Below are positions 29,754 to 55,643 of a DNA stretch of 64,000 nt, one piece after another. Both the position numbers and the translations under genes were made by a program. Source of the DNA: Ulva prolifera (lineage: Eukaryota > Chlorophyta > Ulvophyceae > Ulvales > Ulvaceae); the NCBI GenBank assembly GCA_023078555.1, contig CM041198.1, positions 3,829,354 through 3,893,353 on the forward strand, written 5' to 3'. The notes below the pieces were generated by a model that had not been told where the DNA came from, made no database searches, and was given only the letters and a program-made list of their open reading frames with translations. Numbering within the stretch: the stretch's first letter is position 1; each line of letters starts with the position of its first letter.

Positions 29754-32639
29754 TCACGCAATCATGGCACTAGGCCGGGCACGAGCACGTACCACAGCTC
29801 GGCCGGTGATGCCAGCCAAAGATTGAAGCCCCGCACGGAGCACAAGAGCATTCCCCTTGCACAATGCCACACTCAACCGGCGCAGAGCATTCGTCACAAA
29901 CAAAGCACGGTGCACCTTACCACACCGAGACGCAACCTCCGCCAGCCGATTCAAGTGATTCATGGCAGGCCGCCCCAAGCGACCATGCGTCTCATGCGAC
30001 AACGGCACGAAACTATACGCATCAGGGTCGTACAAACGATAAGCAGTGCGTTTCTGCACGTCTCGCGTCTCCGCAGCACCCCCGTCCTCGCGGGCCGCAC
30101 GGCCGCAATAGGAACCAGCACAGGGGTTCACAACCGACACATCTCCTATGCACAAAGGGTCACCCGGCGGCATAAACATGATGTCCCCCAGTTTCTCCTG
30201 GGCCACTGCCCTGAACACCTCATCCAGCGCCGTTGCCTGCGCGGCAGCGGCCTGCTCCCCAGGCCCCGCTGGATCCTGACCACCCGGCGCCGCCGCCGCC
30301 GCCAGGGCCGCAGCCTGCGCTGCGTCTGGCGCGTGGCGCCCCATCTGGGCGCTGTGTCCAGCATCGGCGTCGGCGGCCGGAGCAGGCGTAGGTGCCGGCG
30401 CCTCGTCCGCGCGCGCGGTCGGCGGCGGCGGCGGGGCTGCAGGCATCGGCGCCGCGGGCAAGGCTGCCCCACGCGAAGGGCCCGCGACCTGGGAGGCGGG
30501 CTGGGGCGGAGCAGGGGGGGGCGGGCCCAACGGGCTAGCATGGATCTGCCTCGATGCGGCCGCGAGCCGCGCGCGGACGAACGGCGCTGTGCGCGGGATG
30601 CGCGTGGATGCCACACACGCGTGGGACCCGATCTCGCGCCATTGTTTTTCAACGATATTGTGGCGCGAAGTCCAGGTCCCCGCATTGTGTGTGCAATTCA
30701 TCGCGTGATCGAGATCATGCGGCTGTATGAGAGTGCCACATTCGCAGCGCGAGCCGACCGCATTGGGAGGGGCTGGGGACATGCCCAGGAGATACCTGAT
30801 GCACAGCATGAACTCAATGTCAGTCATGCGCAGCGCCTGGGAGAGCGGCAGGGTGCTCAACCAAAGGGTGGCTGCACGGCAAGCACAGCTGCGAAGCCGT
30901 GCCAAGTTGCATGCACCCTCGAGCGTGGCGACGTCATGGCTGGCAAGCAGAGCTGCCCGGCGGCGCAGGGCAACCAACTTTGTGATACGCTGCTGCATAC
31001 CAGGTAACACCTTGGCGATGGTGTCGCCGCTCGCCGGCCCGGGCAGCTCCGGATGGAGCTGCTGAGCGACGTTGAGGGCCTGCCAGGTTTCCTGCAATTG
31101 TTGCCCGTGCGGCCCCCGGTACGGCTGCATGCACTCGGGGCCTCCTGCGAACGCCTTTTGGCTCACCGCCGCTGCAGCGAGGTACGCTCCGTCCGCGACC
31201 TCCTGCGGCGTGGACGTGACGCCCAGGCCTCCGAGGCGCGCTGGAAGGACGGCTTGTGCGGCCGCACGAGTGTCGTCCCGCGGGACGCGCATGATTTCAT
31301 TCACCGCAGCCAGGACGGACGCCTCCGTCCGGCGCATGTGATCGGAAATGTGCGCCCACGGCACCGCCCTGGCGTAGTGCAGCATACGGCGTTGGCAGGA
31401 CATCGTGAGCAGCAAGAACTGGTCTTGCGCTTTCAGGGGCAAGCGCATCATCTTTTCGATGGTGGCGCACACCTTGTCGGCCGTCGCTTCCGCGTGCGCC
31501 GACTCGAACGCCGGGGTGCCGATGGGCGTGCCGGTGATGACGGTGCCCTCCGTGGCATGCGTTATGCCGAGCGCGGCCGCGACGGATCCCGCATGCTGGG
31601 GGTCGCGCGAGTAGGCCGTGCACTTGTGCAGCTGGGGCTCCAGCCCGAGGGGCTCTGCTGCCGAGACCAGCGCACGGAATGCGGCGGCGGCGTCCACGCG
31701 CTGCCCGGCGATGGTGCAGTCGTCATGATACGCCATGAGGGCGGCCGTGACCTCCCTCCCGGGTGGCTGGTGCTGGGCCTGCACTGCCTGGAGGGGGCCC
31801 TGGAGGGCCAGGGCGAAGAGCAGCGGGCTGATGGGGTCGCCTTGACGCACGCCGCGCTGCGACGTGATTGCAGCGGTGCCGGGCGGTGCGCCTTCGATGT
31901 AGAGATTTGCGGGGAACCTGTAAAGCATGGTGGCAAAGGGCAGCAGCGCAGGCTTGTGAGACGCAACGGCCTCCAAGATGGCTGCACGGGACATCATGTT
32001 GAATGCATTCTTCCAGTCCAGCTGCACAAGCACGACATCGTCCCACGCTTGCAGCACGGCGCGCGCAGCATGGCCCAGGTTCTGCGCGCCCCCTGGCACC
32101 CCGACCCCCACCTGCAGCGGCGCGAGGGAGGCACCCAGGCCACTGCACAGGGTCATGGCGCACAGGCTTACCAGGCGCTGCCACGTCTCTGCAATGGCGA
32201 TAGGGCGGACGCCTCCCTGTGGCTTCTCCTGCGGGAGGAGGCGGCAGTCCAGCAAGCGCGGGAGGTGTGGCAGCCGGCCGGCGAGGGCCGCGTTCACGAA
32301 GCGGTGAATCTCCGTGAATGCGGCCGTGGAGGCCGTGCCAGCAGCCCGGATGTGCTCATACGTCCACCCCGACAGGCCTGGGCCGCTGCCCTTAGGCAGC
32401 TTGTCGAGCAGTGCGCGGAGCGTCGCCTCGTCGATTTGCAGCGGGGGCGCGGGCTCGGCGGGCTGGGTGTCGGGGGGGAGCGCTTCTGCGGGATGCAGGT
32501 GCCGCAGCGCCTCATGCACTTCCGGGGTGTACCTGGCGATGGGCGGCGCCTCCACTTTCTCTGCGCCTTTGCGGACATTACCGTCGCTCAGTGACCTGTG
32601 GACGGAGCCCGCCAGGCGGCGATCCTGGTTCTGATTCAT
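29754..32639 (-). CDS. LINE copy L6 polyprotein: reverse transcriptase plus C-terminal endonuclease-like domain
   Basis: 961 codons. Residues about 65-330 are a non-LTR reverse transcriptase: LPKGSGPGLSGWTYEHI, LLPQEKPQGGVRPIA, QLDWKNAFN, RQGDPISPLLFA and the catalytic AYHDDCTI. A CxC...H...C cluster (CECGTLIQPHDLDHAMNC) follows, then a Pro/Ala-rich linker. The last 200 residues contain GDIMFMPPGDPLCIGDVSVV, KRTAYRLYD and FVPLSHETHGRLG, resembling the restriction-like endonuclease end of early-branching LINEs (inference). The frame is open upstream of ATG 32637-32639 to the truncation point, so the native protein was longer. It is almost identical to L8, consistent with recent activity. Confidence 0.8.
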   Translation of the reverse strand: MNQNQDRRLAGSVHRSLSDGNVRKGAEKVEAPPIARYTPEVHEALRHLHPAEALPPDTQPAEPAPPLQIDEATLRALLDKLPKGSGPGLSGWTYEHIRAAGTASTAAFTEIHRFVNAALAGRLPHLPRLLDCRLLPQEKPQGGVRPIAIAETWQRLVSLCAMTLCSGLGASLAPLQVGVGVPGGAQNLGHAARAVLQAWDDVVLVQLDWKNAFNMMSRAAILEAVASHKPALLPFATMLYRFPANLYIEGAPPGTAAITSQRGVRQGDPISPLLFALALQGPLQAVQAQHQPPGREVTAALMAYHDDCTIAGQRVDAAAAFRALVSAAEPLGLEPQLHKCTAYSRDPQHAGSVAAALGITHATEGTVITGTPIGTPAFESAHAEATADKVCATIEKMMRLPLKAQDQFLLLTMSCQRRMLHYARAVPWAHISDHMRRTEASVLAAVNEIMRVPRDDTRAAAQAVLPARLGGLGVTSTPQEVADGAYLAAAAVSQKAFAGGPECMQPYRGPHGQQLQETWQALNVAQQLHPELPGPASGDTIAKVLPGMQQRITKLVALRRRAALLASHDVATLEGACNLARLRSCACRAATLWLSTLPLSQALRMTDIEFMLCIRYLLGMSPAPPNAVGSRCECGTLIQPHDLDHAMNCTHNAGTWTSRHNIVEKQWREIGSHACVASTRIPRTAPFVRARLAAASRQIHASPLGPPPPAPPQPASQVAGPSRGAALPAAPMPAAPPPPPTARADEAPAPTPAPAADADAGHSAQMGRHAPDAAQAAALAAAAAPGGQDPAGPGEQAAAAQATALDEVFRAVAQEKLGDIMFMPPGDPLCIGDVSVVNPCAGSYCGRAAREDGGAAETRDVQKRTAYRLYDPDAYSFVPLSHETHGRLGRPAMNHLNRLAEVASRCGKVHRALFVTNALRRLSVALCKGNALVLRAGLQSLAGITGRAVVRARARPSAMIA

Positions 32640-32951
32640 TCTGCGCTTCTGGCTCGGAGTGGGCTCCGCCAGCCTGGGCTCCCATGTATGTAGTTACAAA
32701 GGACAGAGGCCGGGCAGCGAGCCGTTGCTAGGAATACACACGCAAATCCACTCACGCAATCATGGCACTAGGCCGGGCACGAGCACGTACCACAGCTCGG
32801 CCGGTGATGCCAGCCAAAGATTGAAGCCCCGCACGGAGCACAAGAGCATTCCCCTTGCACAATGCCACACTCAACCGGCGCCCATGTATGTAGTTACAAA
32901 GGACAGAGGCCGGGCAGCGAGCCGTTGCCAGGAATACACACGCAAATCCAC

Positions 32952-35668
32952 TCACGCAGTCATGGCACTAGGCCGGGCACGAGCACGTACCACAGCTCGG
33001 CCGGTGATGCCAGCCAAAGATTGAAGCCCCGCACGGAGCACAAGAGCATTCCCCTTGCACAACGCCACACTCAACCGGCGCAGAGCATTCGTCACAAACA
33101 AAGCACGGTTCACCTTACCACACCGAGACGCAACCTCCGCCAGCCGATTCAAGTGATTCATGGCAGGCCGCCCCAAGCGACCATGCGTCTCATGCGACAA
33201 CGGCACGAAACTATACGCATCAGGGTCGTACAAACGATAAGCAGTGCGTTTCTGCACGTCCCGCGTCTCCGCAGCACCCCCGTCCTCGCGGGCCGCACGG
33301 CCGCAATAGGAACCAGCACAGGGGTTCACAACCGACACATCTCCTATGCACAAAGGGTCGCCCGGCGGCATAAACATGATGTCCCCCAGTTTCTCCTGGG
33401 CCACTGCCCTGAACACCTCATCCAGCGCCGTTGCCTGCGCGGCAGCGGCCTGCTCCCCAGGCCCCGCTGGACCCTGACCACCCGGCGCCGCCGCCGCCGC
33501 CAGGGCCGCAGCCTGCGCTGCGTCTGGCGCGTGGCGCCCCATGTGGGCGCTGTGTCCAGCATCGGCGTCGGCGGCCGGAGCAGGCGTAGGTGCCGGCGCC
33601 TCGTCCGCGCGCGCGGTCGGCGGCGGCGGCGGGGCTGCAGGCATCGGCGCCGCGGGCAAGGCTGCCCCACGCGAAGGGCCCGCGACCTGGGAGGCGGGCT
33701 GGGGCGGAGCAGGGGGGGGCGGGCCCAACGGGCCAGCATGGATCTGCCTCGATGCGGCCGCGAGCTGCGCGCGGACGAACGGCGCTGTGCGCGGGATGCG
33801 CGTGGATGCCACACACGCGTGGGACCCGATCTCGCGCCATTGTTTTTCAACGATATTGTGGCGCGAAGTCCAGGTCCCCGCATTGTGTGTGCAATTCATC
33901 GCGTGACCGAGATCATGCGGCTGTATGAGAGTGCCACATTCGCAGCGCGAGCCGACCGCATTGGGAGGGGCTGGGGACATGCCCAGGAGATACCTGATGC
34001 ACAGCATGAACTCAATGTCAGTCATGCGCAGCGCCTGGGAGAGCGGCAGGGTGCTCAACCAAAGGGTGGCTGCACGGCAAGCACAGCTGCGAAGCCGTGC
34101 CAAGTTGCATGCACCCTCGAGCGTGGCGACGTCATGGCTGGCAAGCAGAGCTGCCCGGCGGCGCAGGGCAACCAACTTTGTGATACGCTGCTGCATACCA
34201 GGTAACACCTTGGCGATGGTGTCGCCGCTCGCCGGCCCGGGCAGCCCCGGATGGAGCTGCTGAGCGACGTTGAGGGCCTGCCAAGTTTCCTGCAATTGTT
34301 GCCCGTGCGGCCCCCGGTACGGCTGCATGCACTCGGGGCCTCCTGCGAACGCCTTTTGGCTCACCGCCGCTGCAGCGAGGTACGCTCCGTCCGCGACCTC
34401 CTGCGGCGTGGACGTGACGCCCAGGCCTCCGAGGCGCGCTGGAAGGACGGCTTGTGCGGCCGCACGAGTGTCGTCCCGCGGGACGCGCATGATTTCATTC
34501 ACCGCAGCCAGGACGGACGCCTCCGTCCGGCGCATGCGATCGGAAATGTGCGCCCACGGCACCGCCCTGGCGTAGTGCAGCATACGGCGTTGGCAGGACA
34601 TCGTGAGCAGCAAGAACTGGTCTTGCGCTTTCAGGGGCAAGCGCATCATCTTTTCGATGGTGGCGCACACCTTGTCGGCCGTCGCTTCCGCGTGCGCCGA
34701 CTCGAACGCCGGGGTGCCGATGGGCGTGCCGGTGATGACGGTGCCCTCCGTGGCATGCGTTATGCCGAGCGCGGCCGCGACGGATCCCGCATGCTGGGGG
34801 TCGCGCGAGTAGGCCGTGCACTTGTGCAGCTGGGGCTCCAGCCCGAGGGGCTCTGCTGCCGAGACCAGCGCACGGAATGCGGCGGCGGCGTCCACGCGCT
34901 GCCCGGCGATGGTGCAGTCGTCATGATACGCCATGAGGGCGGCCGTGACCTCCCTCCCGGGTGGCTGGTGCTGGGCCTGCACTGCCTGGAGGGGGCCCTG
35001 GAGGGCCAGGGCGAAGAGCAGCGGGCTGATGGGGTCGCCTTGACGCACGCCGCGCTGCGACGTGATTGCAGCGGTGCCGGGCGGTGCGCCTTCGATGTAG
35101 AGATTTGCGGGGAACCTGTAAAGCATGGTGGCGAAGGGCAGCAGCGCAGGCTTGTGAGACGCAACGGCCTCCAAGATGGCTGCACGGGACATCATGTTGA
35201 ATGCATTCTTCCAGTCCAGCTGCACAAGCACGACATCGTCCCACGCTTGCAGCACGGCGCGCGCAGCATGGCCCAGGTTCTGCGCGCCCCCTGGCACCCC
35301 GACCCCCACCTGCAGCGGCGCGAGGGAGGCACCCAGGCCACTGCACAGGGTCATGGCGCACAGGCTTACCAGGCGCTGCCACGTCTCTGCAATGGCGATA
35401 GGGCGGACGCCTCCCTGTGGCTTCTCCTGCGGGAGGAGGCGGCAGTCCAGCAAGCGCGGGAGGTGTGGCAGCCGGCCGGCGAGGGCCGCGTTCACGAAGC
35501 GGTGAATCTCCGTGAATGCGGCCGTGGAGGCCGTGCCAGCAGCCCGGATGTGCTCATACGTCCACCCCGACAGGCCTGGGCCGCTGCCCTTAGGCAGCTT
35601 GTCGAGCAGTGCGCGGAGCGTCGCCTCGTCGATTTGCAGCGGGGGCGCGGGCTCGGCGGGCTGGGTGT
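32952..35668 (-). CDS. LINE copy L8 polyprotein, 5'-truncated
   Basis: Second near-identical copy of the L6 polyprotein, including AYHDDCTI and the endonuclease-like tail. LINE sequence starts at DTQPAEPAPP. The open frame continues about 46 codons upstream into flanking host DNA and a microsatellite, so that N-terminus (to 35813) is not LINE protein. A few substitutions separate it from L6, for example DLGHAMNC for DLDHAMNC. Confidence 0.8.
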
Positions 35669-35669
35669 C

Positions 35670-37053
35670 CCACCCATGTATGTATGTATGCATGATTACA
35701 TAAACAATAATCATATGGTGCCGGCGCTGAGATAAAGGGGGTTGTTCAAGCCGGCGTGCCGGCGTGTCGGCATAGGCCCTCGTCTGCAAGATACGTGCGT
35801 TTGCAGCAAGCACTCGACGCCATTTGGCAGATAGAACATGCTATGATGTATGTGAAACTGTTGTGATGCGGTTTGAGGTATTTCACGTAACCTGGGACTG
35901 AAAGCTGTGTCCGACGTCGTCTGTACCTGTTGAGGGGGTGTCGTGCGGCCCCGCGATGCCCGATTCCGGTGAACTGCATCGTATTGGCTACTCTGATGAT
36001 GATTCGATTTTTGCGGCATCCAGTGGGTGCGGCTACGCCCTGTCGATCGCGTGTACTGTCGTGACCATTCGCACCTGCATGCATTCGATTGGTTGTATCC
36101 TGTGCTGCCTGGCCCCACGCCTGCACTGCCATGCCAGTGGCAACAATCTCGGATACGTTCCAAATAGTTTAAAACTGCCCTTGATCGCTTGATCTAGACA
36201 TCTCCGTCTTGTTCAGGCTGTCGTGATGTGTCACGGTCCCATCGACGCATCACAACCGCTCGATGTTCTTCGGTGCTGTTGTGCATGTAACATAGTCATA
36301 GGTCTCTGAGTCGCATATATGCTACTGAATGCACTGATCTGGTCGCAGCTGCGCTCATGCGGGACGATTGAGCTACGCCAGATCACTGGAACTCGCCAGC
36401 CATATTCGATACGTCCGCTGGCATGTCATTCTGACATCAATCTGACATGTAGCGTGAGCCTACTGTGGCTCTTCGTGTAGTGTTGCTCCTGCGGTTGCTT
36501 GCACTCAGTGCTGCCGCTCACGCCTGAACTGAAGCACTAGTGGGGTTAACGTATGCCACAGACGCAAATTCACAATAGCTGTTGACCGCGTTGGTGGCAA
36601 GGGCATGTATACCTCAGAGCACGCATGAATCGAGGGGTGTTACAGTGTTGGGTTGCCAGGAGGTGCTGAGGTACCATTCCGAGGAAGGCGCAAGCCTCAG
36701 CCCTCAACTGTCGTCACTGAAGAGCCTTGGCTGAGAGTCCAGTGTTCATCGTGCAGTTTGAGCCGACTCATCGTAGGTGTTCTGCATACCACGTAAATTT
36801 TGAACTGCCATGCCATGACACCGAGGTGCCACATTGGCTTCTCCCTCTACATGAGGCGTGTACCGGGCAAAGACACCAACAACACCAAGTCATAGCAACA
36901 ACCGGGCGCCACATTGGCTTCCCGTTCTACCGGACATGTTGGGATCATCACTAGTGTGGCCAAACTACATGTCATGAGGCAGTGATCATGCCACCCCCAG
37001 CGCTGGCACATCGAGGTGACCAGATGGTTGCATGGGTATTCTTCTGTGTGTAG
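35670..37053. other. Intergenic DNA, possibly with the missing 5' exon(s) of the next gene
   Basis: A TATG-type microsatellite at 35674-35692 borders the LINE array. No convincing coding sequence was found. The frame of the first recognised exon of the downstream gene has no upstream ATG, so a 5' exon may lie here or further left. Confidence 0.45.
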
Positions 37054-40000
37054 GGCTGATGGAGGATCGTCCGGGATTTTGGAGCGCCAGACTGGAGCCA
37101 ACGAAGATGCAGGCGGTGATCATCCCAAGGTCAACCCTGTGACACAGCGGAGGAAGAAAGGGCAGAGCAGCTCCGAAGCAACACAGAAGCCTAGTAACGC
37201 AGCTTCCTCTGCCTTGCCTGAGTGGTTGAGGCCTAGGCATGACGCCATTCAAGTCACTGAGGAGGACCAAATTCAGGCGGCTGCCTTCTATCAAAAATTG
37301 GACAAAAGAGCCAACGGGCCGGCTCCGAAAACGAAGTTCCCTCCACTTTTACATCTCTTGCTACGCGTCAATGATGCTGAGGATGCGCGCGGCAAAAACA
37401 TGGGGGGACAGCTGGTCAATGCAACCGCCAAGGCAAGATCCTCCAAATTTGCAGACAACACGACAGACCGAGATGTGGCAGAATCCACGGACCTGGAGCT
37501 CATACAGTTTGCCAGTCAAATTGGCATAACAATCAACAAGAAGCAACTTGACGGGCCGCTCCTACAACAGTGAGTCCCCTACCATCACGGTGGTTGCCGC
37601 AGCTTGTGCCTTTTTTCCTGATGCATGTGTGCCACACTCAGGACCGATGTGGAACCTACGCCACTGCGGAAAAGGTTGAAACAAACAATGGCCTATGTAA
37701 AGGCTCAAGTTAAGGACAGTAGTTTGAAGCCCTACACTCGCCACATTGACGAGTTCATGTTCTGGTTGCATTTCAGGCATCCAGAGTGCTTCGTGACAAC
37801 GCCGGTACGGTCAATGCTTATTGAAGACACATGTTTTGCTGCTTGTGTTGTGCGTGTTCAGCTGCTTGTGGGCTCTTTGTATGACCTGACCACACCAAGG
37901 AGGTGAGCGAAGCATAACAATTGAACAAGTTAACCAACGAGCTCTCTACAAGCTTTGATGTATGATGTGTGCAGGCCGGTGTTACTGTGCCCATCGTCCA
38001 CAAGGAATTGGCTGCCGAGTTCCTCGGTGATGTCTACGAAGAACGTCGAATGGCAATGCGGCTGTGTTACACCAATAACGTGCTACAGGATAGAGTGCTT
38101 GCGGCCCAAACGCGATTGGGTCCAACAGGACCAGCAGTGAATGGGATTGCCAAAATGGCAAGGCTACACATTACTATCGCGCAGCAAAGGGTTGTCGAGA
38201 CACTGTTCAGCGACTGCAAGGAGGATTGTCCATTGATGCATTTCAACAGTTCACTCAGGCCTGTCGTACGTTCTTATATATGCATTGATGCGTGCTTTGA
38301 TCAATGCATCTCACGGTTGGCAAGTCTGCATTAGTTTCCATATATTTTTGTCCCGCATGCTTCGGTGCCCGGGATACTGTTTATTACTCTACATTGACAT
38401 CACCATGGTGTCACAGACATGCGTACAACGGATCATTCAACAGCAGCGATCGTTGTGGGAGTTGTTCAAGCCGCATGAGGCAAGTCACATCTCTGTTGGG
38501 AACAGCAGAGCACAGAGGAAGAAAATTGAGGTGGTCGTCGTTTTGGAGCCATTCCTGAAACGAGATCAGTACAGTTGTGACGGTGCGAATCTTCAAAACC
38601 AGGATTACATCGAAGCTGCAATGTCAGTACCCCCCAGCACAACCCTCTAGTCCATATCAGAGATGGCTCTGATTGCCCCGGATTTCAGGCGCCGCGGGCT
38701 ATTCTTTTTTGGCCGGCATTGTACATCAGAAATTTCTGCAAGGAGCTCTTGACGACATCAGTCAGGTCATCGAAGTGAACAGTGCGCGGGCAACCATTTT
38801 GCTTTGCTACTGGCGGTTGTGTGCGGCGCAACATCGCATCTGGGCAGGTGCGATCTCTTCTGTTGAATCATGCTGATTGTATAGAAACCTCTGTTGAATT
38901 TCTCGCTTTCGGATTGTGTGTTTCATGCTGCGACTTCATGCAGACACAACTTTGCCATGTCTACAAGGGGTACAGCCACGCGAGACCGCTGCGTGGGCAT
39001 TGCTCGCTCTGCAGTTGCGTGGTATGGTGGCGTTGCCTGATGTCACTACTGCCATGATTGCCGATGATACGATTCTTCAAGAGGTCATCGGTGAAGCGTT
39101 TCGGGATTCTTCGTGCATTGAGGCAGCGGTGCTTGGCGCTGGGGTTGCAACCCATGAGACGGACGACGGCTCCGAGGGGGCCCGGGCAAATGCGGGTGAC
39201 AAACTGTCAGGCGCAAGTTTCCCTGCTTTCGTTGCTGCCGTTGCTGATCGGCAGGAGCTCATTGCTCTTGTCACCACGGCAGTGGCTGATGGTGACGCGG
39301 CTGAACATCAGAGCATTCGCACCAAGCTTGATCAACTTGATGAGGATGCCCGAAGTTTACGTGCGTTGTCCCTGTCGTGTATGGGCCGTTCCATGGCGGG
39401 CCTCTCCACAACACCACAAGCTGACCTTGTTGTTGTGCAGTGCATTGTGGGGGTATGAGCGATGCCGACAAACTTGCAATGAACACTAAGGATGCGGCTA
39501 CAAATCGAATGTACCACATGATGCACGAAGACCTCCTCACGTATCGGGGCCGTCCTGGGGTGTGCAAGGCCTTGATGAACGATGAGCTTGGAGGCACCAA
39601 AGGAGTCCAGCTGAAGAAACTGATCAGCAAATCAGAGAAGATGGTGGTGCGGATCCTGTACGCAGACGACACTGATGTCCTTGTATGCGAGCCTTGGCAT
39701 GATGCCCAGTATATGTTGCAGCTGGGCGACATTTCATTCCTGGAGCATGTTCAGTCTGCGATCGCAGCCCTCTTTGACAAAATGTGGAGGCCGTTAGCGG
39801 GACGAGAGCGTGAGATGATGGGCTATATGTTTTCCGAGCTGCTAGGCGCAAACACATCGTGGCAAGCTCAGGTTGCTGTGTGCAAACAGATGATCAGCGA
39901 TGAGAAGTGCGAACATGCCGCTGGCATTCTCGGCACCATGTCTTGATTCCAAAAAAATGTTTTATGCTACTGCGGCCCAGCTGTACATGACACTATGTCA

Positions 40001-43000
40001 GTGTGCTTGGGGTGCAGGGCAAAGCACGGCAAGGCGAGTTCACGTCAAGTTGTGCATGCATCATTGCCCAACGAAGCAGAACAGCGGCAGTATGACCTTC
40101 GCGGCTTTGAAGCAGGATGTTTTCGTTACTTGCCCGTTGATCCGGAGCAACGTCGGGAGCCAGTCCCGCAGCCAACTCCCAATGGCAAGGTGTTGGCAAC
40201 TGAAGCAGATTGTGAAGCTATGTCATCAATGTAGTGCGGCTCCCTTCTCTGACTGTCGGGTACCCATGTGCGTGAGGATTCTGCATTGCATTTCATGAAC
40301 ATGCTTGGACTGTTGTGTAGCCATCAGATGGTTGCCATGGAGCCGCTGCTATTGAGGGGTGATGAATTGAACCGTTTGCCCATCGTCGCACTCGGCCGCG
40401 CCACATGCACGCGGAGCAATCCGTTGTCAATGGAAGGCATCACGGTTGACCTGCAGCACTCCAAGTCTAATAAGTTGGGCGACAAAGTTGATCAAAGAAT
40501 TCTAACTTTTGGCTGTACCCTCCACAAATGTCCGTTGACCCACCTTGGTCTGCATTTCTTTCGCAAGCTCAGTGTGGACCATAATGGTGGCCCTATTCGG
40601 TGGGAGGCAATCGAAAGCGGTGAATGGTACGTAGTGCCACCGCACATTTTGTCCCGGGCTTCGCATGCACCACTCTTATCACAACTTTGTTCACGCTGTG
40701 ATCCACCTTGCAGGAGGAAATTCAATGTAATTGACATCGTTCTACCCGCCACACACTTTCAGGCTGACACGAGGGACAGGAACACTAGTGCTGGTGCTTT
40801 GACCCGTCGGGTCACGAAATCGCATGTGTACCTGTATGGGCGTGACAACATATGCAAGGTGCTGCACTTGAATAGGGTATCAAAAGCGGATGGCTTGAAC
40901 GCACAAGGGTGTGCTCCGTTTCTGCCCTGACAGTGTGCAAGCGTTGTGTCCGGTGGTCGGGTTGTTGCATCTGGCATCGAACATGATAGTCTGTTGAGGC
41001 GATTCGTTACGCAGGATGGAAGGATCTTTGGTGGACCGCCTCGGGGGCTGGACCCTGAAGACCGCCCGGCTGCTGGCTTACACTATCAGTGCCAATCCAA
41101 AGGCCACTGTCCAATGCCATGGCTTTGCAGACCTGGATGCTTTCCATCCGACCCACGCCTACCTCATCCCGCCGGATGAACTGATTGATGCTGTTTTTGG
41201 CGTGGTGCTGGTGAGGGTCATTGGCATCACATCGCATACTGAGGGTATGACTGTGAGTGAGGCAATCAGTGCATGCAAGGAACATCACTCTGCCAGCAAG
41301 GAGAAGGACTTACCTGCTTACGTCTTCTTCGAAGTTCTGCTCTTCCTCGCTCGGGCACTTCTTCAAGTGTGCACCTTCCACATGTGTCCTTACCACTTGC
41401 AGCGTGAACCACCGATGTTGTATGCGACGGTGTGGTGGTAGTAGCAGCACATATGAATATACCAAATCTGTTCACGTGCCATAGCAGGTGCACAATCTGC
41501 TGCCGTTCAATCTTGCCCGTCCATGGTGCGCCTAACGACCGACCCCAGCCTTGTGTCTGTAGTCTCTGCCGGTCATTCGTGGCACATGGCCGTCGCTGTG
41601 GATCTTCCACGAACACTCTTTGTTCCGCACCAATTCTGGCCATCCACAACAACAACTTTACAACGACTTCGCATCCTTGCAAGTCAAGGTGTACAACGCA
41701 GCTACAAACTACTATGATGGGCAGAAAGTATGTGGCGTCAAACCAAGGGCCACCGAGCCTTGGTCACCAGCTCCTCATCTTGCGCAGGAGGCTGCACGGA
41801 TCAACGCCAAGTGGGCATTTGCAGACAAATTTGGCGATGGCATTTCTGACCCGTGCCGCCAGAGAGCCTTGAAAGAGGTGAGTGTTGTTGTCACCGTTTA
41901 CGGTTGTGTACAAAGGCCAGTTTGATCTAACTGCAGTTGGCTTATGCAGTCGGCCGAGGACACTGAGACAGCGGACGATGCCATAATACCGATTCAACAG
42001 TTGACATTACAACGGCTCATCAAGCAAGCACGGGCCTTATGTCAGAACACGCAGGTGTGTCCCTATGTGTGATTAGTGGCCCAGCATGAAACTGTGTTGG
42101 CAGCAAACGCGATTTGGTGTAGGCCATTGCGCCAACACAAGGCCTAGAGGAGCCTCGTTTCATGCACATGGCCGCCCAAGTGGCTGAGTGGGTCAGGGCC
42201 TTGGAGGAGTATGATGGGCCCAGGCATGTTGATGTCCCGTGCACCATGGTACGACCTGCCACACTGCTAACCATGCATGCCGCAAACAACCAAATGTGTG
42301 GGACAACTAGTAATGTGTGCAAGTTTGTATGCATCACAATCCAAATGTTTTTGTCAACACCAATAGGGTGCACCAAATTACCAACATAGTGGCGGCAATT
42401 CGACTTCCGCGGAGCTTGTGTTGCCAATCTGGGGGCAACCCATCAGCTGGTAGTGTACACCTTTTCAAAAGTTATGTGCATAGGTTGGCGATCCACGCAT
42501 GGCTACGAATGCCACTAATCGATTGAGACAGCAGCTGACTGGCCATCGCTCGGAAGTAATGCGCGAGGTGGTTGACCTCAAAACGACACAGGAATGTAAT
42601 CAGCAGAAAACCGAGGCTCGGCTGGACGAGATTGCACAGAAAGTGAACGCACTCGGGGCATCGGCAGGCGCGCCTGTGCCTAATTTGCTTATTCAAAGTG
42701 GAGCGAGCCGCGGGAAAAGAGGATCTGCCGCCGAGACACCTGGCCCACTTCCCGAGGCTCCACAGCGATCGAGTTGCACCGAATTGTGCCCCAAGCAAGC
42801 CTCGGCAGTGACATCTTTCGGCAATAGTTTCGCTGGGTTTTCGGTGCGATCTGTTTGACTCATGGTCATGTGCCTGCACTCGCCTCTATGACGCTTCGCA
42901 TACATGACACTTGTTCTGGAGCATGACTGATGTTGCATTGTTGCATTGCAGCCACAAGATGCAGTGCGGTTGGTGCTTCATGGCCTCGTGTTGGCCAGAG

Positions 43001-46000
43001 ATGGCCTACAGCTTCCTCCGCTTGGCCTCCAAACGGCCCAAGCTAAGGCATCCATTGACTCCGTGATGTACCAGCAGGCCGTCAATAGTGTGCGTCAAGA
43101 ACTGGAGCACAATAGGGTGGACAGCACCAAAGTAAAGTGCATCATTCATGAGCTCCAAGGTGATGCTGTCATGGTCCAAGCATCGGTGAGTACTTCACAA
43201 TCCCGACGTAAATGTCCGGCCTACAATAGCTGACTCCCATGGGTGCACTGTGTACTGTAGGTGCCCTCACCGGTGCTCAAGAGCGTGGCCCCGCAGGTCA
43301 CGAAGTCGTTTGCGGCGGCGCGCAGGGCCTTATGGGTCTGGTTTCACGAGGTGACCATCTTTAGGGTCCTCAGTCGGCACAAATGTGCTCTCCATGGACT
43401 ACAACTTGCATGTGACAGTGATCGAGAGAAGATGTCATGCACAAGCATAGGACAAGAGCACGCCGCCTTCTGCCTCGCCAACCATTTCGATACCAGCTCC
43501 CGGGGCGACGGGAAGGGCCTCTCCGGGTGGGCGAGGTATGCCAAGTACACTGCTTCCAATGCTGGCACAAACAAGAAGACTTTGGACATGAAAGGAAGTG
43601 TATGTCTCCCTCTTCGATTGCGCGCGTCTGCAGCTGCATGCATGGTCCCTCCCCACAAGGCAGCAAGGCATCAAACCTTCAATCTAAGGCTTCTTGTGTA
43701 TGTAGCACGGGGCCGGGTTGATCAAGATAGCAGCGCCGCAGTGGCGGTACAACACCAACGCGGGCCGAGCATCTGGGGAGACGGTAGATGACCTTGCTGC
43801 GCCGACGTCCACAGCGCCGCCGCCTTCAGCAGCGGCGGCGGCCGCCTGTCCGGCTACGGCCTCACCTGCCACGCCGTGTTCAATTGCACCAGCCGCGCCT
43901 GCCACCCCCGCACCTGCGCCTCCTCCTCCACCGGCGGCGGCAGCCGCCTGTGCGGCGGCTGTGGCCTTAGCTGCCACGCCGTGTTCAACGGCTCCAGGCG
44001 CGCCTGCCACCCCCGCACCTGCGCCTCCTCCTCCACCGGCGGCGGCAGCCGCCTGTGCGGCGGCTGTGGCCTTAGCTGCCACGCCGTGTACAACGGCTCC
44101 AGGCGCGCCTGCCACCCCCGCACCTGCGCCTCCTCCTCCACCGGCGGCGGCAGCCGTCTGTGCGGCGGCTGTGGCCTCAGCTGCCACGCTGTGTTCATCG
44201 GCTCCAGGCGCGCCTGCCACCCCCACACCTGCGCCTCCGCCTTCCGCAGCAGCGGCGGCAGCCACTTATCCAACATTGCCAATATCTCCGGCACCGGCGG
44301 TTGCAGCCTCAGTCTCAACTATCCTCCCCTGCGCAAGTGAGAGTGAACTGCTGCAATCAGATCCTTCCATCATGCTCCTGCGCTCGCCTTCCTCCTTGCA
44401 TCAAATCCACACCGCGCAAGTTCTAGACTTGTGCATCACGGCTGTGCGCATGGTGTATGACAACATTGAGGTGCCCTCTGAGGGTGGCCCTGTGGTGTTC
44501 CGGCATGTCGGATTGGGGGGGTCAGCGGCAAGTCGCCCCCATGTTGTCACGTGGCTTCAGCGGGAGCTCCCGCAGGTTCACGCTGCCGTGACCGACAGCC
44601 GTGAGTATGTGTCAGCACTAGCACCATGCTTAAAATTCAGCGATGGTGGTGCCTTTCAAAACAAGCATGGCTCTCGTGAGTTCGTAAAAGTGGCCAGAGC
44701 ACTATTCATAGATGTCATTGCTCTGCATCGCTGCCGCATGATGACGGGCCCCCCTCCAGATGGATTTGGCCTGCGCATGCATGTGGAGGGGAAACAAGAG
44801 CAAGAGGTTCCATTCGATTGGGACCTCCTCCTTGGCCTTCTGCCGTCTGCCTATCCTGAACATGTCATGTCTGTTCACGCCACTGCGTACATCTATGCTC
44901 GCATCACAACTGGGATCAGTCATCTTGACTGCTCATGCAATTGGTATCAATTCACTAGGTGCCAGCTGGTATCTCAAGGGCTACTGCTGGTCACAACAGC
45001 CTTGAAAAATCAGCGAAGCATAACAGCTTCTACCACAGGGAGGCATCGCCGACCAGACTCTCGTGGTGCAATAGAGCGGCAAGATTTGCCTCGGAAGCCT
45101 CCGGTGCGGAAGCGTGTTCACAATTTGTTGCCCCCTGAGGAACCCGCTTTGCAGCGGAAGTCTCGGCGTCTCGCAAGCAAGTGCGATCTGTGGCTAGTGC
45201 ATGTCCACTGTGTCTTTGTAGTACACTTTGCTGAATCCCAACATGTGCGAACACTTGGTGTAGGACTGCTGCTGGAGGTGCTGCCGCTGCTGCACACGAT
45301 CCGCACCGTGATGTGGGACAGTCTTCGAAAACGAGCACTGCTGCCATTTCTGATGCAACTGCAGATGAGCAGCCCGTGGCTGCTGCCTTGCCATCTTGTT
45401 CAGACGGGCTACTATGGTCGAAGCTGCCTGCACTGCAAGGCGTGGCTGTGCCAACGGACGGAACCGATGGGTACGCTTGTCACCAGGCACTGCTCCACAC
45501 AATGCCAGCACCAGAGTGATAGTGTATGCAGTAATGTTCACACGCATCACGGCTTCAGCATGCCCATTTTGGCATGATTTGGTGCAGGTGCTTACACGAA
45601 AGTCTCACAATTGCTTTTGAGAGGCTTGTGGGTCAAGATGTCCCCATTGATGTTGATGGGGGCACTGTCAAGATCAATGCGTTCAGCGAGCTCCGAATGC
45701 CAGGCTCACGCATCCGTATCAGTCCTGAGGACTTCGCTACATGTGCCTATGGACGGCAAGTCAACGACATCGTGATCGAAATGTACGGAAAATTGCTCCA
45801 GGTACGGTATTTCTCAGACTTCCACCACCACCATGACCCAAATCCACAAGGTATGCCCGCTCACGTGTGATTCAGGAGAGGAATTTCATGGATTGTATGG
45901 CCGGGAGGGCTGGCGCCACATACATCACCACATCTCACCTGCTTCCTAAGCTGGCAGATGTGATGGATATGACATCAGCTCGATTCGATTACCATGAAAC

Positions 46001-46705
46001 CGAGCGATGGCGTACATCGAAGGCAATGGGTCAGCCGATGTTCAGAGTTTATGGTTCCCTACCCCAGCTAGATTGTGTGTTAGTGCCTGTGCACCTGCCG
46101 ATGGGGAAGGACGATGGCCACTGGGTATGCCATCTACGTCTAAGCTATGACCTACCATGACCCTGTGTCCGTGTCTCATATTGACTTCACCTACCTGATT
46201 AAATCTTGTAGCACATACTCGTGCATGGCATGTGCAGACTCTCATTGAGGTCAGGTTCAACTGGAAGGATGAGCGCGAACGGCATGTCATTAAGTACATT
46301 GACTCACTGACACCTACATCTACAATCGCGGCCAAGGCGGTGTCCACTATCATCAGATGGATTGGATGTGAGTGGTTGCGCGAACACATCGGTGCTAATG
46401 GGCGGCCTGCGGATCTGCCGCATAAATTACAGGTGTGATCAAATCCTCCACCTACCTTCTTTTTTCAGCTTTCCACTGCACACCAACGGACACATTCCAT
46501 GCAGGAACAGCAATGGGAAGTGCAACTGCAGCCAGCCAATATTCCGACGCAAAGTAGCAGTGTCGACTGTGGTTTTTTTATGATGATGGCAATGAAACGC
46601 ATTACTGCTGGCGCTTCACTGGATTTTACTCAAAGTCAGGTGTCCAACATGTTTCGTGCTTTGTGCACGTTGGAGTGTGCGTGTTTACAACTATGCAACG
46701 TGTAA
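37054..46705 (+). CDS. Crypton/Ndc10-type tyrosine recombinase fused to a C48 (Ulp1-like) protease, 22 exons
   Basis: Modelled exons: 37054-37569, 37642-37804, 37975-38265, 38417-38582, 38689-38847, 38944-39360, 39441-39871, 40002-40189, 40321-40908, 41015-41366, 41563-41877, 41950-42054, 42123-42248, 42484-42843, 42952-43185, 43261-43350, 43706-45180, 45264-45515, 45588-45801, 45876-46124, 46238-46432, 46505-46705. All junctions are GT-AG and phases agree throughout, giving at least 2,361 residues with no internal stop. Domains: N-terminal core-binding-like segment (KPYTRHIDEFMFWL), tyrosine recombinase (residues about 780-1200), coiled coil (near 42560-42660), GCR1_C-like segment, Pro/Ala repeats, C48 protease (last 280 residues). 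Probably the transposase of a very large Crypton-like element. The first exon is missing. The ends of exons 2, 7 and 8 are the least certain. Confidence 0.65.
40321..41877 (+). other. Tyrosine recombinase core (Crypton/Ndc10_II-like) of the fusion gene
   Basis: Three exons hold the catalytic signature in the expected order: Arg in LLLRGDEL (codon 40355-40357), HSKSNKLGDK, then a HxxxxGR box SHVYLYGR (His 40823-40825, Arg 40841-40843), GGW, and the presumed nucleophile Tyr in LLAYTISANPKA (41079-41081). HPTHAYLIPPDELIDAVF follows, then FLARALLQ spliced to SLPVIRGTWPSLWIF. This order, with a hydrophobic LLQ...W segment after the tyrosine, is what I recall for the Ndc10/Crypton recombinase domain. 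No HMM was run. Confidence 0.65.
43871..44290 (+). repeat. 105-bp (35-residue) Pro/Ala-rich coding repeats, four units
   Basis: Units start at 43871, 43976, 44081 and 44186, each exactly 105 bp apart, so the frame is kept. Encoded words are APATPAPAPPPPPAAAA and CAAAVALAATPC. They form a flexible linker between the GCR1_C-like segment and the protease half. Confidence 0.9.
45588..46705 (+). other. C48 (Ulp1/SENP-like) cysteine protease domain of the fusion gene
   Basis: Four exons carry the family pattern: NDIVIEMYGKLLQ (like the WLND...I..Y..LL opening), VLVPVHLP...DGHW with catalytic His (46119-46121) spliced directly into TLIEV, KYIDSL with Asp (46301-46303), then TQSSSVDCGFF with Gln (46550-46552) and Cys (46568-46570). 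The His-Asp-Gln-Cys set is complete. Family members cleave SUMO or related conjugates. In transposons their role is unknown, possibly processing the polyprotein or removing host SUMO. Confidence 0.8.
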
Positions 46706-47149
46706 AATATTGCTGCATTGCCCTGTACTGACTCGGTCTGCTCGACTTCAATCATTGCTCTGTGGATGCATTGCTGTCGTGACCATCCCGCATGCCACCG
46801 TCAAACGCGTGAGAGTTCCCAAAAACATCATCTGAGCTCAATGAAATCACAGCGACAGTAAAGGAGCGGGTGGCATCTTTACAATGTCTGTACGTCAACA
46901 CGATCTAGTGGAGTCTGCAGTCCAACTGCTGCTGGCATATCTACTACAAGTACATCTATGGGCTCCTATTGTCAAGGTGTACCTTCAACATCCTATTTCT
47001 GGATTTTCCGACGGACCTGCATGAGTTGAACCTTTTTCCTGCCAACAGACACTTTCACAACGCACACAACTGCTCAGCCACACTCAGCGATATACACGCA
47101 TTTACTGACACACAGCGACAGCATATACCACCCTGAAGTCACCAAGCAT
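46706..47149. other. 3' flank of the recombinase-protease gene
   Basis: No coding sequence seen. Presumed 3' UTR and, if the gene belongs to a transposon, its right end. It runs into the satellite. Confidence 0.5.
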
Positions 47150-49690
47150 GCTGTAACATAACAGGCAGAGGAGGGATGTGAGCACCTTCGGCATTCATTG
47201 CCTCTGGCAAACATCACAAGCAGACATGCTATCACAACCAAGAAGAAACAAACAGGCAGAGGAGGGATGTGAGCACCTTCTACACTCATTGCCCTTTGGC
47301 TAACTACACGAGCAGACATGCTATCACAACCAAGCAGAAACAAACAAGCAGAGGAGGGATGTGATCACCTTCTGCATTCATTGCCTCTGGCAAACATCAC
47401 GACCAGACATGCTATCACAAACAAGCAGAAACACACAGGCAGAGGATGGATGTGATCACCTTCTGCATTCATTGCCTCTGGCAAACATCACAACCAGACA
47501 TGCTATCACAAACAAGCAGAAACACACAGGCAGAGGATGGATGTGATCACCTTCTGCATTCATTGCCTCTGGCAAACATCACAACCAGACATGCTATCAC
47601 AAACAAGCAGAAACACACAGGCAGAGGATGGATGTGATCACCTTCTGCATTCATTGCCTCTGGAAAACATCACGAGCAGACATGCTATCACAAACAAGCA
47701 GAAACCAACAAGCAGAGGAGGGATGTGATCACCTTCTGCACTCATTGCCTCTGGAAAACATCACAAGCAGACATGCTATCACAAACAAGCAGCAACAAAC
47801 AGGCAGAGGATGGATGTGATCACCTTCTACACTCATTGCCTCTGGCAAACATCACGAGCAGACATGCTATCACAAACAAGCAGAAACCAACAAGCAGAGG
47901 AGGGATGTGATCACCTTCTGCATTCATTGCCCTCTGGCTAACTACACGAGCAGACATGCTATCACAAACAAGCAGGAACAAACAAGCAGAGGAGGGATGT
48001 GATCACCTTCTGCATTCATTGCCTCTGGCAAACATCACAACCAGACATGCTATCACAACCAAGCAGAAACACACAGGCAGAGGAGGGATGTGATCACCTT
48101 CTGCATTCATTGCCTCTGGCAAACATCACAACCAGACATGCTATCACAACCAAGCAGAAACACACAGGCAGAGGATGGATGTGATCACCTTCTGCATTCA
48201 TTGCCTCTGGCAAACATCACAAGCAGACATGCTATCACAACCAAGCAGAAACCAACAAGCAGAGGAGGGATGTGATCACCTTCTGCATTCATTGCCCTCT
48301 GGCTAACTACACGAGCAGACATGCTATCACAAACAAGCAGGAACAAACAAGCAGAGGATGGATGTGATCACCTTCTACACTCATTGCCTCTGGCAAACAT
48401 CACAACCAGACATGCTATCACAAACAAGCAGAAACCAACAAGCAGAGGAGGGATGTGATCACCTTCTGCACTCATTGCCTCTGGCAAACATCACAAGCAG
48501 GCATGCTATCACAAACAAGCAGCAACACACAGGCAGAGGATGGATGTGAGCACCTTCTGCATTCATTGCCTCTGGAAAACATCACAAGCAGACATGCTAT
48601 CACAACCAAGCAGGAACAAACAGGCAGAGGAGGGATGTGATCACCTTCTGCATTCATTGCTCATGGCAAACATCACAAGCAGACATGCTATCACAAACAA
48701 GCAGCAACAAACATGCAGAGGATGGATGTGATCACCTTCTACACTCATTGCCTCTGGCAAACATCACGAGCAGACATGCTATCACAAACAAGCAGAAACC
48801 AACAAGCAGAGGAGGGATGTGATCACCTTCTGCATTCATTGCCCTCTGGCTAACTACACGAGCAGACATGCTATCACAAACAAGCAGGAACAAACAAGCA
48901 GAGGAGGGATGTGATCACCTTCTTCATTCATTGCCTTTGGCAAACATCACAACCAGACATGCTATCACAAACAAGCAGAAACACACAGGCAGAGGATGGA
49001 TGTGATCACCTTCTGCATTCATTGCCTCTGGCAAACATCACAACCAGACATGCTATCACAAACAAGCAGAAACACACAGGCAGAGGATGGATGTGATCAC
49101 CTTCTGCATTCATTGCCTCTGGCAAACATCACAACCAGACATGCTATCACAAACAAGCAGAAACACACAGGCAGAGGATGGATGTGATCACCTTCTGCAT
49201 TCATTGCCTCTGGCAAACATCACAACCAGACATGCTATCACAAACAAGCAGCAACACACAGGCAGAGGATGGATGTGATCACCTTCTGCATTCATTGCTT
49301 CTGGCAAACATCACCAGCAGACATGCCACAACCAAGCAGAAACACACAGGCAGAGGATGGATGTGATCACCTTCTGCATTCATTGCCTCTGGCAAACATC
49401 ACAACCAGACATGCTATCACAAACAAGCAGCAACACACAGGCAGAGGATGGATGTGATCACCTTCTGCATTCATTGCTTCTGGCAAACATCACCAGCAGA
49501 CATGCCACAACCAAGCAGAAACACACAGGCAGAGGATGGATGTAATCACCTTCTGCACTCATTGCCTCCGGCAAACATCACAACCAGCCATGCTATCACA
49601 AACAAGCAGGAACAAACATGCAGAGGAGGGATGTGATCACCTTCTACACTCATTGCCTCTGGCAAACATCACAAGCAGACATGCTATCAG
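47150..49690. repeat. 91-bp satellite array, about 28 monomers
   Basis: Tandem monomers of 91 bp (a few 88 bp) share TGATCACCTTCTGCATTCAT, GGCAAACATCAC, CATGCTATCACAA and CAGGCAGAGG. Variants are ordered. The 47728-48000 block (a CTGGAAAA unit, a CTACACTC unit, then a CCCTCTGGCTAACTAC unit) recurs with few changes at 48640-48912, about 912 bp later, giving a roughly 10-monomer higher-order period. Near the right edge a 179-bp dimer (91+88) occurs twice (49269-49536). The repeated small open frames are an artefact of the monomer. Confidence 0.93.
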
Positions 49691-52600
49691 ACCCAGGCGA
49701 AAAACGAGCAGAAGTAAACAATGTGTACTACACATCACACATACAAAAGCAAGTGTGTTCGTTGTAGAAGCAAGTGTGTTCGTTGTGAGTGGAGCATGCA
49801 CGCGCAAGCTGTGAACGACGCCACGACTACTGGCGTCGGGAAAGAGGGAAAGACAAAGGCGTGCGCTCAAATCGAAAACATAGGTGGTCTGTGAGCGAGG
49901 TTCGAGTGAGTTGCGCTTTGTTTTTGGCGTGCAGCATGATGCATGGTGCTGACGCGAGGAGAGCGATTGCGCGTGCATCAGATTTCCCGGGTGTGACATG
50001 TACTGTTGTCGCCTGGCACACACTACAATTCTAGTGATACACCATTCCGGCATTTTGTAAACATGAGATTCACACAACAGAGTTTACGTTTCCCCAGCAG
50101 ATTTTTTCCGTGTCCATCCACTGCTCAGGACCCAGACTCGTAGTGGCGATCACTCTTCCACGCTTCACCTTTACGTTAGGTATCTATTGTCTGCTATTTT
50201 CTGTACGCGTTGACTGGACCGCATGCCGCCTCGCGGATGGCGGAAGTACAAGGATGGCAAACAAGCCTACTGGTGCCGACCCGCCTCCATCATCGCTCTG
50301 ACACGCATTTCCCACCAGAAAATCCAAAACGAAGCAATAGTTCTCATGTCGCGCTGACCGAGAGTGCCGTCGCTGATGCTGCGTGTTGGTGGTGTGCAAT
50401 ACAAGGTGTGCGTCATGTGGACGGACAAAGCAGCCCAGGCGCTCGACTACGCACACGAATCACGCGACCCGCGCACATCATCAGCACTTACCATATCACA
50501 CATCTTCCGCGGGCGTCGGTCAGCATCGCGGCGTCGCCAGGCCCACGACGCCGCTGCGACCGCGCGCCCCAGCGCAGCTGCTGCCCGCAGCGCTGCCGAG
50601 GCCCCGCCCGAGGCGCCCAGGTGCCTCAGATATCTCTCAGAAGAGTATCAGGATGCGTCTGGGCGTGTCTCCGTGTGCGCGGGGGCCCGGGGTCGCAGCC
50701 GAGGGCTAGCCGAGGGCAGCCCGCTGGCCCGCCGCGGCGCGCGCCGGAAGTAGGGGAGACATAGCCGTATCCATTTGGACATTGACAACTCTGAAATCCG
50801 GGACCGAGAGAGGCATCCAAGCAACATGCTGCCGCAAACTCTGTGCTACAGCGGTGGCTTGTGGGTGCAGTGCACAGGCTTGGCCATGTACTGCGCCGGA
50901 CCTGTGTGCTGGAGGGTCCTCATCACGCTGTGCCGGGTCCCCGCGCTCCCATTCTTGCCATGCGTGCGGCCCCTGCAGCACATGCTTCTCACCTCTCCGC
51001 ATGCGATGCTTCTCACCTCTCCGCATGCGATGCTTCTCACCTCTCCAAATCCAACCTGGTCTATCATGGGAGGACTCTCCGGGCTGCAAGCCCGTGCATG
51101 GGTCAACAGGCACCACCATTTTAAGGGGCTGCGCATACCTGCCTGTGTGGCTTGGTCCCAATTGAAACGCTGCCAAGGGGCAGCAGCTGCTACGTAGCTA
51201 GCATAGTATACGCCCCCATGGCCATGATGGTTTTTGTCTGGTCGAAATCGTTGTAGTTCCATACAGCAGGCCTGTACGCCAGCCTAGATGCCAGCCTAGA
51301 CGCCAGGTTGAGTGCAGTTTCCATACTTGGCCAACATGGCTGTAGCGCTAGCCAACATGGCCATGGCTACAGGTGGCCCCAATAGCATGTTACTAAGCCC
51401 ACAGTGGGTCCCCATAATCATTCCCACGTGCATGCCACCACACCATACAATCCATATGTCACATATGATATGTGTAACATATGTCCCGTGATTGCAAGTC
51501 CACCACACCGCAACGCATAGCAGACATTACACCGGCGCTCTGCCTTCACCGGCACTGCATCCTATCGAGGCCTCCAGCTGGAGCTCCACACTCGCTCTGC
51601 CAGCTGCAGCAGTAATCACTCGTATTGAGGCGGCATGCGGGAAGCCATGCGTGCCCAGCGGGGCCGCTGCAGCGGTGTCTATAGGGGCCGAGCACATTGC
51701 AAAGGCGCTTGCTTGCAAATTCATGCCAGCGCTACTGCCAATCGCGACAAACGTGTCTCAGTATGTACTTGAAGAACAGACATGGCACGCGGAACATGCA
51801 TGAACATCGGTACTGCGCCGGTGGCGCTTGGGATCGGTCAGAACAAGTTTGATCCTTCACGATCCTTGCCAACAGTACTTTGACACTCCCCTTACGAATC
51901 GGGCGGAAGTTGAAGTTGCGTTTGTATAGGCGGCCGTGTAGTCTGCAGCATGGAACAAACGATTAATACAGGCTCCTGAAGTATTCTTGACAGCAAGGTG
52001 CCAAGCAGAGATGTCTGCGCCTGAACATGAAATCTCGCACGGTGCGTGAATGAGCCTCAGTCGCTGTTGAGACGATTTCTCTGTGCGCGTTATCGGGACG
52101 CTTTCATACAATGCATCTAAGCGGCAGCTTTAACTCTTCCACTTGTGCTCTCGCCTTGATGTGTCGCTCTCTGCTTTGATGCCTCGGTTTAAATGACCAT
52201 TATCGTCGTGAATGTCTTCAGATCGCATCGCAGCATTTGTTCTGCGCTGCTGCGAGACTCGGTAATGCAGGTCGACACATTCAGCTCACCAACACCGAGC
52301 ATGCTCCTCCCACTAGACGATATCATAGATAATGAGTATGTTTGCAGTCCGTCACAGTCTCTATGCTTTTCTTGCCAATCGGCAGGCATCTGCGCGTGGC
52401 GTTCAGCCTGTGACCGACGTTTATTGTCGCCGGAACGTGGCGCCCATGTTGAGCACAGCAAGTTAGTGTGGCATGATCGTGGAACCTCAAAGAACTCTCA
52501 CTTTCAAGCGCAGCGGTGTGGACTGCCACTGTGCAGCAACGCATACACACATTCCCCTGTTTCTCTTGAATATCTACTGCGTAGCGCGTCTGGAATTACA

Positions 52601-54974: not shown

Positions 54975-55334
54975 TGTCACAATGCATGAGCCTGCGGGCA
55001 GCAGTGTGGTGACAGGTGCACCCATGCACGGACGATCCGCGGATCCAGTGTAGGGGTAAGCCGCCAGTCAGGATTGTCTCGATGTAGCGGGAGAGATCCC
55101 GCGAGGGTTTCCCGTCGTAACCTTGAGTGTTATGTGTTCAGTGTGCATATATGGATGTGCACACTGAGATCTGTAACCATTCTCATTACTGTCTTACGGT
55201 ACTAGCACTTATCTCCTCTTACGCGTTTCCTCGGTTCTACCTCTGTGCGCAGCAGGTATGGAAACGCTGGCTGACCTGATGTGACCTGAACTGAGACTGC
55301 GCGTCTGACCTGCAAGCTGAAACGGTTTCTGTCA
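54975..55334 (+). repeat. 5' LTR of element A
   Basis: 360 bp, TGTCAC...CTGTCA. It contains a TATA-like CATATAT near 55146 inside a GTGCACA-flanked palindrome, a possible core promoter (inference). Confidence 0.95.
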
Positions 55335-55349
55335 TGGTATCGATGAATG
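55335..55349 (+). promoter_or_regulatory. Primer-binding site of element A
   Basis: TGGTATCGATGAATG starts right after the LTR. The first seven bases match the usual copia primer site complementary to the 3' end of initiator methionine tRNA; the rest departs from it. Confidence 0.6.
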
Positions 55350-55643
55350 TTAGCGTTATGTCTGTTTATGGTCTTGTTCAGGAAGCCGTCGGCCAATGTC
55401 TGTGCGCAGACACGGCGGGCATTCCACTGTTCTGCCGGCGCTCAGACTGCGGTCAAAAGCGCAGGCATCATTTAGCTCTCTCGTAGTATATTGTTGTTAG
55501 ACACAATTCGAGAAGCTTGTTCAAATGATCAGCGCTGAGAAAAGCGAACGCGTTCGCTTGTTTCTTTCAACCTGTCGGCTTGCGAGCCAATCCCATCGGT
55601 TAGTTGCTGCGCGCGACGAAACAACCGTCTGTCCTAATGCAGG

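Follow-up and report, generated by a model that had tools for sequence, protein, structure and literature searches.

A Crypton-type element of Ulva prolifera with a probable single gene for a tyrosine recombinase and a Ulp1-type protease

C48 peptidases have been reported in CryptonF and CryptonS elements of oomycetes, including CryptonF-2_PS of Phytophthora sojae (Kojima and Jurka 2011, PMC3212892), and the presence of a tyrosine recombinase and a C48 peptidase in one Crypton is already known. Here we analyse a 64,000-nucleotide stretch of the Ulva prolifera genome (the window; C3:3829354-3893353 of an 88.9-Mb genome in 44 contigs, with positions given as those of the window unless a contig is named) that contains a repeated element of about 15 kb. 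We consider it probable (about 0.72) that this element is a Crypton-type DNA transposon with a single long gene for an Ndc10/Crypton-like tyrosine recombinase and, after it, a Ulp1-type cysteine protease. The probable fusion within one gene and the insertion target are the new parts, and a report of either was not met in the open-access literature, which leaves most subscription journals outside its coverage. An earlier reading made from the letters of this DNA alone (the sequence-only reading) had proposed that the fusion was possibly undescribed; this is not supported for the joint presence of the two enzymes in Cryptons.

The closest described systems each share part of this architecture. 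CryptonF-2_PS likewise combines a tyrosine recombinase with a C48 peptidase, and the description consulted does not say whether the two domains are fused there; oomycete CryptonF elements have 6-bp terminal direct repeats, similarly short in the present element (PMC3212892). Unlike CryptonF, the element has no GCR1_C match, and it is 15 kb long with a gene of at least 23 exons and an internal satellite array. CryptonS, described from oomycetes and a diatom, resembles it in having no GCR1_C, terminal direct repeats of 5-6 bp and C48 in some members, whereas C48 is there an additional protein and most termini are TATGG rather than ACATA (PMC3212892). Domain II of Ndc10 (Pfam NDC10_II) represents a related sequence family, whose cut-off is passed by one relative of the recombinase, but the catalytic site of Cbf2/Ndc10 is described as not preserved (PMC3212892) and the catalytic set is present in the element's recombinase. 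Finally, Ginger1 and Mutator transposons also encode a Ulp1 domain with their transposase, although that transposase is of the DDE type and Ginger1 has terminal inverted repeats (PMC2836005). Ulp1 and related protease domains recur in unrelated transposons, with a role only suggested (PMC2836005). A single chain in which Ulp1 is tied to a tyrosine recombinase, the order being kept in a diverged relative, would make the question of that role testable.

The features of the gene, all on the forward strand, are as follows.

37054..46705, forward strand: gene of 23 exons and at least 2,421 residues, drawn from the exon chain, the copies and the diverged relative
37642..38265, forward strand: probable N-terminal part of the recombinase (exons 37642-37804 and 37975-38265), conserved in the relative
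40321..40626, forward strand: catalytic exon with Arg (LLRGD) and Lys, invariant in four families
40714..40908, forward strand: catalytic exon with His-x-x-Arg (LHLNR), from the four-family alignment
41015..41366, forward strand: catalytic exon with Gly-x-Trp and Tyr (AYTISANP), from the four-family alignment; end shifted from 41429
42952..43599, forward strand: conserved middle region (exons 42952-43185 and 43261-43599), replacing a 43350-43706 bridge; similar to two other families
43814..44263, forward strand: coding tandem repeat rich in Ala and Pro, 4.3 copies of a 105-bp unit, with a difference of one unit in the C2 and C4 copies
45588..46705, forward strand: Ulp1-type (C48) protease domain in four exons, from Pfam PF02902 and the SENP2 alignment

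In the corrected splice model, 23 GT-AG exons separated by introns of 68-235 bp are chained with all phases in agreement and no internal stop, giving 2,421 residues counted from 37054 up to the stop codon; the sequence-only reading had chained 22 exons over the same stretch. Comparison with the diverged relative moved the first-model exon ends at 41429 and 42326 to 41366 and 42248. No convincing start exon or start codon was found for the gene, position 37054 directly following an acceptor, and an 8-bp first exon of the automatic model (36974-36981) is not trusted. It had also been argued that decayed DNA or two unrelated genes would hardly allow such a chain. Phase matching is by itself weak evidence, as all 20 dinucleotide shuffles of the region also chained under codon scoring (21-36 exons, 898-1,363 aa); it is score and length that set the real region apart, with 302.6 and 2,507 aa, against a score of at most 53.3 for the shuffles. 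Because codon usage was trained on this same gene, a codon-free run is the fairer control, and there the real region reached 92.9 and 2,555 aa while another 20 shuffles reached at most 31.2 and 1,673 aa. Scores above those of the shuffles were also found in other stretches of the window (up to 170.2), which is expected wherever it holds further coding sequence.

The sequence-only reading placed Arg, His-Arg and Tyr in order in the first half of the gene, and this stands. In an alignment of four families (the window, the diverged relative and two still more distant families on contigs C8 and C7, with the relatives spliced by eye), Arg17, Lys53, His158, Arg161, Gly182, Trp184 and Tyr194 are invariant in 4/4. 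The distance from Arg161 to Trp184 is the same as that from Arg292 to Trp315 of Cre. The sequence kinship to Crypton/Ndc10 recombinases is reached only via relatives: the C8 family (C8:4108480-4109570) passed Pfam NDC10_II at 4.9e-9 (36.1 bits, cut-off 26.3), the C7 family (C7:4852470-4853500) remained under the cut-off at 0.0015 (18.1 bits), and the diverged relative's recombinase had no NDC10_II match in the Pfam scan. A profile comparison of window and relative with C8 and C7, at two sequences per profile, gave a probability of 99.8 across 273 columns. Searched genome-wide, NDC10_II gave one weak match elsewhere (0.77) and none in the element, where introns split the domain. The N-terminal part of the recombinase gave Phage_int_SAM_4 at E 0.037, under the cut-off and ranked behind Rer1 (0.033). 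No C48 match lay near the C8 and C7 recombinases among the matches listed.

The protease at the other end of the gene is readily recognized. Its last 285 spliced residues match Peptidase_C48 (PF02902) at 3.3e-15 (56.9 bits, cut-off 20.7), and in the best PDB match, SENP2 (1.4e-3), the His, Asp, Gln and Cys are all aligned, in agreement with the C-terminal set recognized earlier; the joining of DGHW to TLIEV by splicing was also right. Among the Pfam domains that had been anticipated, Peptidase_C48 passes, NDC10_II is below threshold in the window with only the C8 relative passing, and GCR1_C is not matched.

The GCR1_C proposal depended on a splice from 43350 to 43706. We reject it because the stretch that this splice leaves out, 43351-43599, is coding and is conserved in two other families, and neither splice form has a Pfam GCR1_C match; 43261-43599 is a single exon, and the W...WFHE...WR pattern is a product of the wrong splice. 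In the diverged relative 43309-43575 is kept at 37% identity, and a third family (C5:7675947-7676279) aligns with the middle region in one unbroken frame (query 76-186 of 209, 37%). A genome-wide GCR1_C search was empty, but its controls also gave no match, so that it is not evidence of absence.

The order of the parts is the same in the diverged relative. Among the best candidates, which were all that the searches for families and relatives scored, C2:8706653-8715905 is colinear with window 37370-46693, on one strand, across the recombinase, middle and C48 exons, with 34% identity in the recombinase core. In this relative's family, recombinase and C48 share a strand at a second place (C5:82875-92477), separated by about 9 kb, and the family's recombinase also occurs with the middle region on C1 (C1:12003004 and C1:11996932-11996271). 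The third family combines the middle region with C48 (C5:7676637-7673010). The colinearity in the relative supports placing recombinase and C48 in one unit; the two halves most likely form one coding unit, and the whole chain would be transcribed as one mRNA. Downstream of the relative's C48 exons lies a repeated stretch with a spacing of about 173 bp (C2:8716293-8719405), as in the window element.

The extent of the element is given by its copies and by the repeat into which it is inserted.

35698..50763, forward strand: whole element, 15.07 kb with both ACATA cores counted; ends from the C2, C4 and C1 copies and the left-end places
35698-35702: left core, ACATA, then AACAATAATC
50759-50763: right core, ACATA, preceded by GGGGAG
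47155..49689, no strand: tandem array within the element, 91-bp unit, 27.9 copies
35675..35697, no strand: left flank, in which the tail of the target repeat reads (GTAT)n and next GCATGATT
50764..50843, no strand: right flank, other half of the target repeat; 85 bp including the core shared at 97.6% with other genomic copies

From left to right the element consists of the gene, the 91-bp satellite array and about 1 kb of right-end sequence; C2 and C4 have the array too. The C2 copy, on the minus strand, is 99.2% identical to window 35682-44263 (the left 8.6 kb) and reaches the same right end. The C4 copy is 98.5% identical to window 35697-43086 (the left 7.4 kb) and resumes beyond a 10,778-bp insertion, and C1 carries the right half (87% over 44596-46738). 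The sequence-only reading had suggested a search for other full-length copies; near-identical copies are present on C2 and C4, of which C4 is interrupted and C2 lacks one splice donor, and the right half on C1 is decayed. The right end GGGGAGACATA is common to the window, C4, C2 and C1 copies, and the terminal direct repeats are ACATA at both ends in the window and C2; in C4 only the right end has ACATA, and the left has ATATA. No RVT match lay in those exons and open reading frames of the element that were scanned, and PADLOC gave no match. The insertion in the C4 copy (C4:7943755-7954532), which starts CACAGGTC and ends GACCTGTG, is possibly a DNA transposon. Within the right end of the element, 46-61 bp at 49922-49982 resemble 29 other places in the genome among the matches listed (87-98%), one of them in the window.

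Insertion strongly favours one repeat and one base within it. Ten left-end places were listed and the junction was read at nine, all except C3:11373214. Two of these, C38:7602 and C8:5962565, have shared flanks and no element interior and are excluded from the seven left ends with element sequence, six of which (window, C2, C1:10015839, C3:11100843, C5:3003454 and C5:5067907) enter the target repeat at the same base, with GCATGA (GCATAA at C1) two bases ahead of ACATA and six different outer flanks past (GTAT)n; the seventh, on C4, sits in an (AT)n run. Right junctions were read at five places, three of which (window, C2 and C5:5067907) continue with GCCGTATCCA and then diverge, while C4 and C1 are without it; three more listed places, which match the right end over 23-33 bp, are left out of this count. 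The uninterrupted joined site GCATGATTACATAGCCGTATCCA occurs 256 times in the genome at up to three mismatches, with 93 of the listed places exact, and its reversed control not at all. All eight uninterrupted loci that were fetched have GTAT units to the left, in L048 barely over one, and the window's right flank agrees with seven of them from the first base for 45-85 bp, whereas at L050 the agreement starts only past an interruption. Seen from the opposite strand, the target is a repeat ending in (ATAC)n, which may be a tail like that of a long or short interspersed nuclear element (LINE or SINE).

Several places add detail to this site. C5:5067907 is a remnant within the same target, in which about 48 bp of flank and the left end are joined nearly straight to the core of the right end. 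C38:7602 and C8:5962565, with the same flanks in both, have the target site with a 15-bp insertion like the element's first bases, perhaps a footprint. Like the right end of the element, the left end at C3:11100843 reads AGACATA. A strand exchange as wide as about 7 bp was considered for it and is weakened, as an apparent target-repeat variant AGACATAGCC would explain it equally. Target-repeat copies at C7:3554648, C7:2085215 and C2:4593988 apparently have AGACATAGCC and not TTACATAGCC, judging from match limits (query 1068-1111) and 98% identity.

These features suggest a pathway in which the recombinase would cut the element out in circular form, closed at ACATA (GGGGAGACATAAACAATAATC), and the ACATA core of the circle would recombine with ACATA or ATATA in a target, preferentially GATTACATAGCC within the (ATAC)n-tailed repeat. 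With less certainty, the C48 part might work at the site of action, freeing host factors or the transposase itself of SUMO or a similar modifier. More tentatively, at slightly less than even odds, this may be a Crypton-type lineage that combines recombinase and Ulp1 in one protein of about 2,400 residues and inserts at one exact base in the tail of an abundant retroelement-like repeat, with another element serving as a safe landing pad. To our knowledge, the target rules of eukaryotic tyrosine recombinases are little known. The repeated insertion site offers a natural integration assay for one of them.

Change between copies was compared without 43800-44300 and with the C4 insertion removed. 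Relative to C4 there are 45 changes in 6,759 exon positions and 38 in 2,386 intron positions, and relative to C2 nine in 6,765 and nine in 2,386; the ratio of nonsynonymous to synonymous substitution rates (dN/dS) is 0.53 and 0.24, respectively, and the aligned codons are without stops in both. In the corrected model, exon insertions and deletions (indels) of 6, 105 and 3 bp in C4 and 105 bp in C2 are all multiples of three. C4 has GC at 43600.

A number of findings weigh against a Crypton-type element with a single recombinase-protease gene. The window recombinase alone reached no Pfam cut-off (NDC10_II, 0.14), and the two-sequence recombinase alignment, compared as a profile with the PDB, returned five matches, none significant, headed by malate dehydrogenase (0.8), with Flp second and fifth (1.1 and 1.8) and the His-x-x-Arg and Gly-x-Trp in register with the recombinase in the second-ranked match. 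Protein database searches brought up no more than two fragments, P0001, which covers 71% of the query at 84% identity, and P0002, which covers 29% at 100% identity; both look like unspliced frames of the element, and a search with spliced residues 1-1264 (790-1190 scored) found nothing. The automatic model of the diverged relative, which may be partly decayed, splices uncleanly and skips parts of the middle and C48 exons, and among the best candidates no recombinase was found near the middle region and C48 of the third family (C5:7673010-7676637). No transcript was seen, and dN/dS is not low in the second half of the gene (first and second half 0.38 and 0.88 versus C4; 0.07 and 0.94 versus C2, on five and four changes). 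The difference between the halves relative to C4 would fit a Crypton-type element with two adjacent genes, one for the recombinase and a separate one for C48 as in CryptonS, where C48 is published as an additional protein (PMC3212892). We regard this arrangement as improbable, since there is no intergenic gap, with short introns and phases that agree throughout, and the middle exons are kept in order in the relative.

A further group of adverse findings concerns decay and indels. The C1 copy is frameshifted (indels of 10, 2 and 7; dN/dS 0.69), the insertion that breaks the C4 copy sits in an exon, and the donor at 37570 is lost in C2. Of the four exon indels, three fall within the coding tandem repeat, and C4 carries a 10-bp insertion at 41390 that was exonic in the first model and became intronic once the exon end was moved to 41366. 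With full copies so few, the element could be dead, its frame a recent relic and its copies spread by duplication or by a recombinase from elsewhere. This is unlikely, though it deserves more weight than separate genes: the window copy is stop-free over 2,421 residues, its exon indels relative to C2 and C4 preserve the frame in the corrected model, and the insertions occupy separate copies of the target whose outer flanks differ. Least probable by far is movement by a DDE transposase, with 3-bp target duplications of ATA and with recombinase and protease as passengers. There is a published precedent in MarCry-1_FO, a Crypton moved by another transposase (PMC3212892), and ATA is found at both ends of the window, C2 and C4 copies; however, it is present at every junction read and the site is repeat-specific, terminal inverted repeats were not found in an ungapped test over 21 offsets (best 11/30 matches), and the scanned exons of the element contain no DDE domain. 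A Crypton-type element with one long recombinase-protease gene remains the reading we prefer.

The window around the element is rich in retroelements. Two non-LTR (long terminal repeat) retrotransposon copies with RVT_1 lie on the minus strand at 29754-35840, with frames of 979 and 962 aa, and the second abuts the element's left flank. A Copia-type LTR retrotransposon at 54975-61553 has a 1,852-aa open frame (RVT_2 1.4e-54, and rve) and direct terminal repeats of about 340 bp, and 1837-17838 is occupied by broken, nested Copia-like pieces, in which stretches of about 340 bp recur in either orientation.

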